From contig JAJCYR010000056.1 in the NCBI GenBank assembly GCA_029262775.1, positions 248,001-312,000 on the forward strand: a stretch of 64,000 nt of DNA, given 5' to 3'. Below the pieces are notes generated by a model. That model made no database searches. It saw only the letters and a program-made list of their open reading frames with translations, and was not told the DNA's origin. Below are positions 3,248-44,036 of the stretch, one piece after another (positions within the stretch are counted from its first letter, which is position 1; each line of letters opens with the position of its first letter). A program made the position numbers and the translations under genes. This DNA is from Bacteroidota bacterium. Lineage in GTDB: Bacteria > Bacteroidota > Rhodothermia > Rhodothermales > UBA10348.

Positions 3248-4702
3248 ATGAGAGTACGCTTCGCCCCCAGTCCCACCGGCTACCTGCATATCGGTGGCCT
3301 CCGAACCGCCCTGTACAACTGGTTACTTGCCCGCAGTAGTGGCGGAGTGTTCATTCTTCGCATCGAGGACACGGACCGCTCCCGGTTTGTGGCCGATGCG
3401 GAGCAGGACATCATGGACAGCCTGCAGTGGGCTGGATTGGACATCGATGAGAGCCCGGAAAAAGGCTCCTACCGGCAGTCCGAGCGGACCGACGTGTACA
3501 ATGCCGCGCTTGGGCGCCTGCTGGCCGATGGCCGGGCGTATGTGGCGTTCGATACACCGGAGGAAATCGAGGACATGAGGTCGCGTCTGGCGACGGACAC
3601 GAATCCGAATCCGAGGTACGACTGGACGACGCGATCCAGCATGAAAAACAGCCTTTCGCTCAGCCCGGATGAGGTTGCGGTGCGCCAGAAACGCGGCGAC
3701 CCCTACGTCGTACGGCTGCGCGTGGACCCGGGGTCGGTCGTGCGCTTTACGGATGTGGTGCGGGGTGAGGTCAGTTTTCGCACGGATGACGTGGACGACC
3801 AGATTCTGCGAAAATCCGATGGGTTGCCGACCTACCATCTGGCGAACGTGGTCGACGACCATGACATGCAGATTTCGCACGTAATCCGGGGCGAGGAATG
3901 GCTCTCGTCCACGCCGAAACATGTGCTGCTCTATGAAGCCTTTGGTTGGGACGTACCGCAGATGGCGCATCTGCCGCTCATTCTCAGCCCAACGGGCGGC
4001 AAGCTATCGAAGAGAAACGCGGACAAGGAGGGGATTCCAGTGTTCGTTCGCGACTACATGGCTGCCGGATACGAACCAGAAGCGCTCTTGAATTATCTGG
4101 CACTACTCGGATGGCATCCCGGTGGGGAGCAGGAAGTATTCTCCCTGCGTGGCCTCGTGGATGCGTTTTCCCTCGATCGTGTGGGACAGTCAGGAGTACA
4201 GTTTGACAAGGATAAGTTGGCCTGGTTCAACGGACAACATCTCCGTCGCAGTGCTCCCAGTGACATTGCGCGCGGCCAGATGAATGCCCTTTGCGCAGCG
4301 TATGGCGACGTGGATGAGGAAAGGGCGGTCGAAGCGGCCTCGCTCATGCACGAGCGCATGGCGTTTGCTTCGGACCTGGTCGGGTTCGAGTACCTGTTCC
4401 AGGCACCGACAGGTTGGGACGAGGCGGCCGTCAAGAAGCGGTGGAAGGACGATTCGCCTGCCTTGGTCCTGGCCTACCGGGATGCGCTCCTGGAACTGGA
4501 TGACTGGACAGCCCCGTCGCTGGAGGCCTGCCTGCGAAAGGTGGCCGAGGAGCACAAGGCCGGGGCAGGGCGCCTCATTCACCCGGTTCGCCTGGCCGTG
4601 AGTGGTGTTTCCTATGGACCGGGACTGTTCGACCTGTTGATATTCCTGGGCCGGGACGCGGTATGCAGTCGCCTGGAGCGAGCGGTCAAGGCGCTCGCCT
4701 GA
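3248..4702 (+). CDS. gltX: Glutamyl-tRNA synthetase
   Basis: A class I aminoacyl-tRNA synthetase of 484 residues that charges tRNA-Glu with glutamate. The N-terminal signature RFAPSPTGYLHIGGLRTALY contains the HIGH-type motif (HIGG, about 14-17), and the KMSKS equivalent is KLSKRN at about residue 250. IEDTDRSR near residue 45 is also typical. The frame is open to 3227, but ATG at 3248 puts MRVRFAPSPTG at the family's usual N-terminus. The last 17 bases overlap the convergent gene on the other strand. Whether the enzyme discriminates tRNA-Glu from tRNA-Gln cannot be told from this window. Confidence 0.97.
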   Translation: MRVRFAPSPTGYLHIGGLRTALYNWLLARSSGGVFILRIEDTDRSRFVADAEQDIMDSLQWAGLDIDESPEKGSYRQSERTDVYNAALGRLLADGRAYVAFDTPEEIEDMRSRLATDTNPNPRYDWTTRSSMKNSLSLSPDEVAVRQKRGDPYVVRLRVDPGSVVRFTDVVRGEVSFRTDDVDDQILRKSDGLPTYHLANVVDDHDMQISHVIRGEEWLSSTPKHVLLYEAFGWDVPQMAHLPLILSPTGGKLSKRNADKEGIPVFVRDYMAAGYEPEALLNYLALLGWHPGGEQEVFSLRGLVDAFSLDRVGQSGVQFDKDKLAWFNGQHLRRSAPSDIARGQMNALCAAYGDVDEERAVEAASLMHERMAFASDLVGFEYLFQAPTGWDEAAVKKRWKDDSPALVLAYRDALLELDDWTAPSLEACLRKVAEEHKAGAGRLIHPVRLAVSGVSYGPGLFDLLIFLGRDAVCSRLERAVKALA

Positions 4703-39672: not shown

Positions 39673-40055
39673 CCATTCAAAGCTCGTTCGATGATCTTGA
39701 GAGGGTCGTTGATCAGGCAGAAGTTTTTTTTTCCAGATATTCAGAAGATGACGACATGGTGTACAGGGCGGTTCTTCTGGCATCGGAAGCGGTCACAAAC
39801 GCCATCGAACACGGCAACGAGTCCATTCTGGAAAAGAAAGTCGAAATCGTATTCGAGGAGCGGTTGGATGCGTTTATCATTGAAGTCGAGGATGAGGGCA
39901 AAGGATTTGTGCGCAGTGCCGTTGTAGACCCGCTCGATGAGGGAAATCTGCTGGAGGACGGGGGGCGTGGCCTGTTTCTGATAGAACGCTTGGCCGATGA
40001 CGTACGCTACGAGTGCGGCGGCCGACGAACTGTAATCCGTTTTGACCGGACCTGA
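39669..40055 (+). CDS. RsbW/SpoIIAB-like ATP-binding serine kinase (HATPase_c_2)
   Basis: A 128-residue single-domain GHKL ATPase of the anti-sigma serine-kinase group. The N-box ASEAVTNAIEHGN (about 39-51), G1 box VEDEGKGF (about 75-82) and G2 box GGRGLFLIERLADDV (about 99-113) are all intact, so ATP binding and kinase activity are plausible. ATG at 39669 gives an ATGA overlap with the glycosyltransferase. No STAS-domain antagonist, PP2C phosphatase or sigma factor lies next to it, so its partner is unknown. Placement between two glycosyltransferase-type genes is unusual. Confidence 0.88.
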   Translation: MTIQSSFDDLERVVDQAEVFFSRYSEDDDMVYRAVLLASEAVTNAIEHGNESILEKKVEIVFEERLDAFIIEVEDEGKGFVRSAVVDPLDEGNLLEDGGRGLFLIERLADDVRYECGGRRTVIRFDRT

Positions 40056-42099
40056 CGCCCGCATTGACGGTCCCTTTTCGCGGACATCGGCCATAGTTTT
40101 GGTCGTGCTGATGGCGACGGCGGCCCTTTTCATGTTACAGGCCGCGCAGCAGCAGCATACCTTTCCGGTTTTTGTGGCGTCGGCGCTTCTGCTTGGACTG
40201 TTCCAGGTGGTGGCATGGAAGCAGGACGGGCTTTCCACCAGTTTCGTCTTGGGCCTCGCCGTTGTGCTGCGGCTCGTGGCCTTCCCAACGCCTCCTGTAC
40301 TTTCGGATGACGTGTACAGGTATGTTTGGGATGGGTGGGTCGTACTGGAAGGAATGAATCCGTACGCATTCAAACCATCGGATGCCGTCTTTACGGACTG
40401 GCACGGTAACGCGCTCTATGACCTGCTCAATTCGGCCGATTTCCATTCGGTGTATCCACCCGTAACACAGCTATTTTTCGCGGCGGGTGCGCTGCTGGGC
40501 CGGGAAATACCGATTTTCGCCTCCATTCCCGGGCCTACGGCGACGTGGTGGCCGGCATGGATGGGGATCAAGTCGCTCTTTCTGGTAGCCGAACTGGTGG
40601 GTCTATGGGTGCTGTCGCGTCACGTCAGGGCCCGTACGTTGCAGCTCGTCGCGCTCAGCCCGGTTCTGCTCATCGCCGGCGCGCTCCAGGGGCATACGGA
40701 CATACTGCTGCTCCCGCTGCTCGCGGCGGGTGTGGCAAGCTGGTCGCGGGGCCGGTGGGGCATGGCCATTACATGGGTTACGCTGGCCGGCTGGGTGAAG
40801 CTGGTTCCGCTGGTGCTCCTTCCGTTTCTGATTCTCGGAGCGTTGCCGCATTGGAAGGGCCGGTTTCGCCTTGCGGGCGTTGCCGTACTGGCCAGTGTCC
40901 TGGTGTGGATTCCGTTTGCGGCGTCCTATGTGCCCACCCACGTGGCCAGCTCGCTGAATCTGTATGTGGTATGGTTCGAATTCAATGCCGGACCCTACTA
41001 TCTGGTCAAGGAGTGGTACGAACTGCGCACCGGTGCGGACTGGTCCAAGCAGATCGGGCCGGCGTTCCGTCAGATATACATGATGATTCTTGTGGCGTTC
41101 GGTGCTGTGGCTCTGATCGCCCCCCGACGGCTGCGTTTCGTACTGGACGAGGCGGCCGGTTCGCATGACCAGAATGGCGATGCGGGTGGAACGTCCGGAT
41201 GGTGGGCCTGGAAGGTTGGCTATTCCGCCTGGGCACTGTATCTGGTGTTTTCCACCACCGTCCATCCATGGTATCTGATTGGGGTGCTTGTACTTGGGGC
41301 CGTTCTGTTCGAAAACAGGATACCCTGGCACTGGTGGGCATTATCTGTCATGAGTGTGGGTACGTATTTGTTCTACTCCCATGGTCCGGAACCCTATTGG
41401 TGGGCCGTGCGCCTGGGTTGGGGGCTATGGTTCCTGATCTGGGTGGTAGTGCGTAGTCCACACTGGCTGCAGCACGTACTGGCGTGGCGTGCCGATGCGA
41501 AATATGCCAAATTGCGACGCTGGATTGGGCCGGGTGAAAGCGTGCTGGACGTGGGAGGGGGAGAAGGGTATCTGGCCTTGCGCCTGATACAGGAGGGGGG
41601 CGATCGGGGTGACCGTGCGCAGGAACAGATGCTGGACCGAAAGGTCGCGGTTGCTGAAGTCCGGTCCACGGTCAAGCTTCCCGTGGAAGAGGTGCAATAC
41701 GATGGATTCGTATTGCCACTGGAAGACAATGCCTATGATGTCGTAGTGATGACCTACGTGCTACATCATGCCGAGCATCCGGAACGTGTTTTCGAGGAGG
41801 CCCTTCGCGTCGCCCGTCGTCGGGTGGTTGTGCTGGAGTCTACCTACAGGACGGAGAGGGAGCAAAACCTGCTCCGCCGTCTCGACATGTTGGCAAACCG
41901 CCTGCGGTCGGCTGGCAGGCAGCCGGATGGCCGATCTGGCCGCAGCATGAAGCACCAGGAAGCCCATTTACAGCATCGGCCCGATGCGGCATGGATCCAG
42001 TTCGCAACCGGGCTGGGCGGCAACGTCGTGGCGTGCCGGCCCATTTGGCGACCGCTTCACCGGCAGTTCCTTTTCGTTACGATCCCTGGGAATAAATGA
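40042..42099 (+). CDS. GT-C-type polytopic glycosyltransferase fused to a SAM-dependent methyltransferase
   Basis: A 685-residue fusion. Residues 1 to about 475 hold ten or more hydrophobic membrane segments with the loop motif SDDVYRYVWDGWVVLEGMNPYAF near residue 90, as in polyprenyl-phosphate-dependent mannosyl/glucosyl transferases. Residues about 485-680 form a class I methyltransferase: SVLDVGGGEGYLALRLI (AdoMet motif I, about 501-517) and LPLEDNAYDVVVMTYVLHHAEHPE (about 560-583). The start is TTG at 40042, overlapping the RsbW-like stop by 14 bases; ATG at codon 24 is an alternative. The 3' end overlaps the convergent miaA by 23 bases. It probably modifies an envelope glycan or lipid; the substrate is unknown. 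Confidence 0.85.
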   Translation: MTGPDARIDGPFSRTSAIVLVVLMATAALFMLQAAQQQHTFPVFVASALLLGLFQVVAWKQDGLSTSFVLGLAVVLRLVAFPTPPVLSDDVYRYVWDGWVVLEGMNPYAFKPSDAVFTDWHGNALYDLLNSADFHSVYPPVTQLFFAAGALLGREIPIFASIPGPTATWWPAWMGIKSLFLVAELVGLWVLSRHVRARTLQLVALSPVLLIAGALQGHTDILLLPLLAAGVASWSRGRWGMAITWVTLAGWVKLVPLVLLPFLILGALPHWKGRFRLAGVAVLASVLVWIPFAASYVPTHVASSLNLYVVWFEFNAGPYYLVKEWYELRTGADWSKQIGPAFRQIYMMILVAFGAVALIAPRRLRFVLDEAAGSHDQNGDAGGTSGWWAWKVGYSAWALYLVFSTTVHPWYLIGVLVLGAVLFENRIPWHWWALSVMSVGTYLFYSHGPEPYWWAVRLGWGLWFLIWVVVRSPHWLQHVLAWRADAKYAKLRRWIGPGESVLDVGGGEGYLALRLIQEGGDRGDRAQEQMLDRKVAVAEVRSTVKLPVEEVQYDGFVLPLEDNAYDVVVMTYVLHHAEHPERVFEEALRVARRRVVVLESTYRTEREQNLLRRLDMLANRLRSAGRQPDGRSGRSMKHQEAHLQHRPDAAWIQFATGLGGNVVACRPIWRPLHRQFLFVTIPGNK

Positions 42100-43937: not shown

Positions 43938-43965
43938 ATGCAACATAAGGTTAATTATGTTGTGT
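43938..43965. other. Candidate dif site (Xer recombination site) at the recombinase start
   Basis: 28 bases with the 11-6-11 layout of dif: left arm ATGCAACATAA, centre GGTTAA, right arm TTATGTTGTGT. The inner CATAA-N6-TTATG is identical to the core of the E. coli dif site. The inverted arms match over 8 bases (CAACATAA/TTATGTTG). It sits immediately 5' of a Xer-type gene and within 2 kb of the coding-direction reversal. An autoregulatory operator is the main alternative. Confidence 0.6.
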
Positions 43966-44036
43966 GTCAACAGGGACCGCCGCCGGGTCCTGTCGCGTAG
44001 CGGGATCGCCGGCCGGAACGAGGCGTTAGGCAAGCC

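Follow-up and report, generated by a model that had tools for sequence, protein, structure and literature searches.

Introduction

The locus described here raises the question of whether a 28-bp palindrome touching the start of a gene for a Xer-type tyrosine recombinase is the chromosomal dif site on which that single recombinase acts. The palindrome lies in a stretch of 64,000 nucleotides (the window) of contig C56 (404,675 bp), which belongs to a 3.34-Mb draft genome of the Rhodothermales (103 contigs; completeness 94.7%, contamination 5.3%). Single-Xer systems already described are XerS, XerH and XerA (PMC5357621) and XerL of Legionellales (PMC9765430), and the literature searched describes single-recombinase dif sites so far only in streptococci and lactococci, epsilonproteobacteria, Legionellales and archaea. 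Predictions of dif sites in 19 Bacteroidetes genomes were limited to strains with XerCD orthologues, and Salinibacter and Rhodothermus are not mentioned there (PMC3025954). Our literature search found no report of a single-Xer/dif system in Rhodothermales (Rhodothermus, Salinibacter), subscription papers being mostly outside its scope. The evidence below indicates that the palindrome very probably serves as the chromosomal dif in a system of chromosome dimer resolution with one recombinase, the activity of which is untested.

Anatomy of the site and its recombinase gene

On the forward strand of the window the site reads ATGCAACATAA-GGTTAA-TTATGTTGTGT, and in the orientation of the gene ACACAACATAA TTAACC TTATGTTGCAT. 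The 11-6-11 inverted repeat of the preliminary description is present as claimed, one base from the start of the recombinase open reading frame. Its arms are complementary at 9 of 11 positions, and the inner eight bases, which had been called nearly symmetrical, are perfectly so. The gene-proximal arm resembles TTATGTTAAAT, the XerD half-site of E. coli. The contig contains 108 palindromes of the 11-6-11 type with at least nine matches, and ATAA/TTAT inner ends occur only in the dif-like site. A search of the 3.34-Mb draft genome for further copies of the 28-mer or a better dif, as the preliminary description had advised, returned neither another copy at up to three mismatches nor a canonical dif at up to two; the reversed 28-mer, used as a control, has no copy in the genome either.

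The recombinase, called N-type here, carries the two Pfam domains of simple tyrosine recombinases. Alignment with E. coli XerD matches all of R148, K172, H244, R247, H270 and Y279, in agreement with the earlier claim of a complete enzyme. It reaches the cut-off of none of the four family models applied, scoring 180 bits against a cut-off of 329.6 for XerD, 168 against 335 for XerC, 150.9 against 220 for XerA and 59 against 267 for the NCBIfam XerS model. XerD is the top match in a search of PDB sequences, in which no XerH chain passes an E value of 1e-20. The same recombinase profile matches residues 22-283 of chain 14 of PDB 9i5v, a chain of 401 aa named RaiA, which suggests that Xer and RaiA are fused in it or that it has been mislabelled.

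Table 1 Features of the dif-like locus (positions in the window)
Feature	Position	Strand	Remark
dif-like site	43938..43965	-	unique; 28-bp element conserved, flanks unconserved
gene-distal arm, gene-oriented ACACAACATAA	43955..43965	-	
6-bp central region, gene-oriented TTAACC	43949..43954	-	conserved in most relatives, exactly or with minor changes
gene-proximal arm, gene-oriented TTATGTTGCAT	43938..43948	-	
possible promoter overlapping the site, TTGACA (43970-43965)-17 bp-TATGTT (43947-43942)	43942..43970	-	inference
Xer-type tyrosine recombinase (N-type), 308 aa	43010..43936	-	catalytic R-K-H-R-H-Y complete
miaA	42077..42991	-	neighbour common to the loci of both recombinase types and to many detached sites
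cumulative GC skew maximum, inferred terminus	56776	.	contig C56 position 304,776

The recombinase gene has miaA and fxsA as neighbours. A single open reading frame at 40042-42099 has a C-terminal third that matches methyltransferase families (MetW, Methyltransf_11), preceded by a long hydrophobic, membrane-like part; it is possibly a fusion.

Conservation of the site across Rhodothermales

Conservation was surveyed in 94 Rhodothermales genomes, each at least 85% complete, of which 40 carry the N-type enzyme. When family f13 is left out, the site is found in all 29 N-type genomes and in only one of the 47 genomes without the enzyme. This single match, in G017, has three mismatches and is not palindromic, and looks like chance. 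A Fisher test was applied to this co-occurrence of site and gene without correction for relatedness, so that shared descent is ignored. Among 60 relatives, the site precedes orthologous genes down to about 45% protein identity, with the exception of two f15 genomes, and conservation upstream of orthologues, another of the proposed checks, is thereby observed. The conserved block is exactly 28 bp long, with up to 2 bits per position in the site against a mean of 0.3 bit in its flanks. No clear N-type site was found in G038.

The start codon is not conserved in the relatives, in which the distance between site and conserved domain ranges from tens of bp to over 100 bp, so that the contact between site and start codon seen in the window is incidental. 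In family f15 the site is often detached altogether, separated from the gene by kilobases (at most about 33 kb) or placed on a different contig. These detached copies are usually still near miaA, and in several genomes their arms match at 11 of 11 positions.

The detached copies bear on the possibility that the palindrome is only an operator, through which the recombinase or another protein regulates the expression of its own gene. Such a role would fit a site that abuts the start codon and overlaps the possible promoter of Table 1, and a bound recombinase could plausibly regulate its own gene in addition. However, the f15 copies are kept far from the gene, often with perfect symmetry, and for this reason a pure operator role is considered ruled out, or at the least highly improbable. 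Conservation of the asymmetric 6-bp core and the position of the site at the terminus, described below, also speak against it. The TTG of the possible promoter is frequent in the flanks of gene-linked sites and is not evident at detached copies. The site may therefore have autoregulation as a second role, its overlap with the possible promoter being seen where the gene is adjacent.

Position of the site at the inferred replication terminus

The analysis of GC skew covered the 404-kb contig and samples, not the whole genome. Along contig C56 the skew is positive to about 300 kb and mostly negative beyond. The site, at contig position 291,938, is 12.8 kb from the cumulative maximum. GGGNAGGG, the KOPS motif of E. 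coli, is oriented toward the site from either side, with 30 forward and 9 reverse copies before it and 1 and 16 after it. The reversed-motif control, GGGANGGG, is less polar (31 and 17 before the site, 8 and 18 after it).

The complete chromosome of a relative, OX638318.1 (3,198,349 bp), whose recombinase is 59% identical, has its site at 3,136,370. There the skew in 2-kb steps turns from positive to negative at about 3,134,000, that is, at the site; samples taken between 1.52 and 3.10 Mb are positive with few exceptions, those from the remainder of the chromosome negative with few exceptions, and the opposite turn lies at about 1.5 Mb. The preliminary description had asked whether the skew turns at this locus, and it does so 12.8 kb away on contig C56 and at the site itself in the relative's chromosome. 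The Xer genes of two further genomes, which we presume to be those of Salinibacter ruber DSM 13855 and Rhodothermus marinus DSM 4252, likewise lie at or near a skew turn. One site per chromosome, placed at the terminus or GC-skew shift, is what defines a dif site in position, and the palindrome conforms to it.

Absence of canonical XerC and XerD

A search with the XerD model at E <= 1e-60 in a mixed sample of Bacteroidota returned at least two genes in each of the 53 genomes outside the Rhodothermales and none in the eight Rhodothermales. In 60 Rhodothermales genomes no canonical XerC or XerD passes the XerD cut-off. The order thus lacks the two canonical, catalytically active recombinases of a XerCD/dif system.

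The window genome contains one other Xer-like gene, G000:C18:23554-24366, which BLAST missed and the XerD profile found. Its product, in which K, H, H and Y are intact, is shared by most of the order, and it might serve the N-type enzyme as an XerC-like partner in a two-recombinase system. However, both catalytic arginines are missing in all intact copies examined, R148 being replaced by S or G and R247 by T; the protein is badly degraded in G040 and not found at the cut-off in G059; and the arms of the site are alike, as they are not in a dif bound by two enzymes. Two cooperating recombinases are accordingly very unlikely here. The arginine-less protein could still act as an architectural partner, and because the genome is a draft in 103 contigs, a plasmid-borne partner of the recombinase cannot be fully excluded. 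The single-Xer reading of the preliminary description stands as far as canonical XerC and XerD are absent, and requires the qualification that a second, arginine-less Xer-like gene exists.

XerC of Bacteroidota is often encoded beside hpf/raiA. No such neighbour of the arginine-less gene was seen in the four loci read. Contig C81 (4.5 kb) carries an integrase that was discounted, being only a weak match and located on so short a fragment.

How a single recombinase may act at the site

The events proposed at the site, from binding to dimer resolution, are inferred. Two monomers of the adjacent recombinase would bind the two similar arms, and two sites so occupied on a dimeric chromosome would be brought into synapsis at the terminus. 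The recombinase would then cleave beside the ATAA/TTAT ends and exchange strands across the 6-bp core, yielding monomers. FtsK with its gamma domain, which is encoded in 26 of 27 genomes (at G000:C21:36236-36418 in the window genome), probably unites the two sites by tracking along the polar motifs; this control, too, is an inference. The symmetric detached sites and an enzyme of 308 aa offer a simple test case of how one recombinase orders two like half-sites.

A second module at the miaA locus

Other Rhodothermales carry a different Xer protein, called D-type here, which is about 25% identical to the N-type and forms a separate clade. It has a complete active site and its own upstream palindrome, GATAA-N6-TTATC, found within 1 kb of the gene at 19 of the 27 loci with sequence in front. 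In family f1 the D-type gene adjoins miaA, where the window genome has the N-type gene.

The two types alternate among close relatives. In genus g5, G013 and G017 have the D-type and G007 and G020 the N-type. G007 retains a leftover D-type gene with an altered active site, and in G020 a fused remnant of the two ends of the D-type gene lies between the N-type gene and miaA. In genus g9, G015 has the N-type and five other genomes the D-type. Outside f13, 2 of 29 N-type genomes also carry the D-type, and in the three f13 genomes checked the D-type protein has lost catalytic residues and the N-type is complete. Strict mutual exclusion of the two types was rejected as an absolute rule, since both are carried by Salinibacter-family genomes and by G146. 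No catalytic residue has been lost from the D-type copy of G146, and at this locus (L374, G146:C131:12977-15480) complete genes of both types lie side by side in divergent orientation and are separated by the N-type site, which may represent an exchange in transition. At three Salinibacter-family loci (L329, at G038:C1:1873811-1876290, L373 and L376) a D-type gene that has lost catalytic residues is followed directly by a complete N-type gene; in some cases the catalytic boxes of the N-type gene are parted by an insertion.

The pattern is read most parsimoniously as D having been replaced by N in place, and repeatedly, its direction being inferred from the observed remnants of the displaced module. 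A recombinase related to those of plasmids and phages would, together with its own site, have moved into the terminus locus next to miaA in several lineages, each time as an incoming N-type module replacing an older, different single-Xer module. The single-Xer system foreseen for this lineage is supported, with the correction that the order has two different modules rather than one. Since neither type is detected at the cut-offs used in 10 of 76 non-f13 genomes, the order is not fully explained. The genome pairs constitute natural before-and-after cases of a joint swap of recombinase and dif. If the fuller scenario of the next section is true, chromosome dimer resolution would be a replaceable cassette whose exchange has been caught at several stages, including the decayed remains of the loser.

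Origin of the N-type module

Relatives of the N-type enzyme outside the order are found in cyanobacteria, armatimonads, acidobacteria and others, on 127 plasmids and, at about 40%, in two Acetobacteraceae phages. In a tree built by a quick method and without XerH rows, all these relatives join the N-type with an SH-aLRT support of 100, and XerC/XerD and the D-type stand apart. In front of the genes of distant relatives an 11-6-11 palindrome with at least nine matches is present in 19 of 57 cases, against 3 in a downstream control. Most of the 11 plasmid genes sampled have no obvious 11-6-11 palindrome in front, and on these genes a palindrome directly upstream was rejected as a general trait of the plasmid relatives. 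The clade grouping and the excess of palindromes make it plausible, without proving it, that a plasmid-type resolution kit was recruited. The two-enzyme machinery is gone from the order, and its place appears to have been taken by a one-enzyme kit akin to those of plasmids. The odds only slightly favour the fuller scenario, in which Rhodothermales lost XerC/XerD, two distantly related single-Xer/dif modules displace each other beside miaA, and the module of the window derives by domestication from a plasmid-type kit for multimer resolution, having arrived together with its own dif.

The same relatives raise the possibility that recombinase and site are part of a phage or mobile element that has integrated at the terminus, with the palindrome as its attachment site. 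The closest relatives outside the order are indeed on plasmids, in the two phages or among multi-copy cyanobacterial genes, and elements often integrate at dif. However, the N-type gene and its site are present in single copy with no second att site, the neighbours miaA and fxsA are housekeeping genes, and both long-term conservation across families and the terminus position have been kept. An integrated element is therefore regarded as extremely unlikely, and a resident dif module remains the preferred interpretation.

Comparison with known single-recombinase systems

Each of the four known systems shares features with the N-type module. In XerS/difSL of streptococci and lactococci, a single recombinase is likewise genetically linked to its own terminus site, but XerS is longer, at about 356 aa, and difSL, with its 31 bp, is atypical (PMC5357621), unlike the 308-aa enzyme and symmetric 28-bp 11-6-11 site of the Rhodothermales. 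XerH of epsilonproteobacteria is also a single recombinase with difH near its gene; it has 354-362 aa and an imperfect site (PMC5357621), and the N-type enzyme is about 50 aa shorter. The kinship with XerS- and XerH-type systems implied by the preliminary description holds for the use of a single recombinase; the enzyme itself does not match the XerS model and groups with the plasmid, phage and cyanobacterial clade in a tree without XerH rows. XerL is an order-wide single-recombinase replacement of XerCD in Legionellales, with a palindromic terminus site and, in Coxiella, a plasmid connection that recalls the N-type; it differs in its lineage and in its larger size, as judged from a catalytic tyrosine at 387-389 (PMC9765430). 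The archaeal XerA acts alone on a 28-bp 11-6-11 site, sometimes as an individual xerA/dif module, but without FtsK (PMC5357621), whereas FtsK with a gamma domain is present in the Rhodothermales genome.

The simple tyrosine recombinases of plasmids, phages and cyanobacteria fall in the same clade as the N-type, and about a third of the distant relatives have the 11-6-11 palindrome; they are often plasmid-borne or multi-copy, whereas the N-type gene is single-copy, chromosomal and at the terminus. Class-specific simple recombinases possibly replacing Xer have been proposed, a cyanobacterial subgroup included (PMC8138268), and the N-type relatives perhaps overlap this 'Cyan' subgroup. The D-type resembles the N-type in its miaA-adjacent locus in family f1, its own palindromic site and its complete active site, and is set apart by sequence, clade and site motif. 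A Bacteroidota-related order that lacks XerCD and has two self-contained Xer/dif modules as alternatives adds a new lineage to the single-Xer systems.

Other dif-like palindromes

A second near-perfect N-type-like palindrome, with one mismatch, lies near a contig end at G050:C29:159-186 (L110), perhaps on a plasmid. A second dif-like family has a divergent left arm, GAGACATAA-N6-TTATG. Its copies are found at positions 3592 and 7505 of L370 (G128:C131) and at G129:C27:27741, G128:C70:27825 and G073:C36:1198. In G128, two sites of the GAGACATAA type are embedded in related cassettes of small genes, an arrangement that elements exploiting the dif system would be expected to show.
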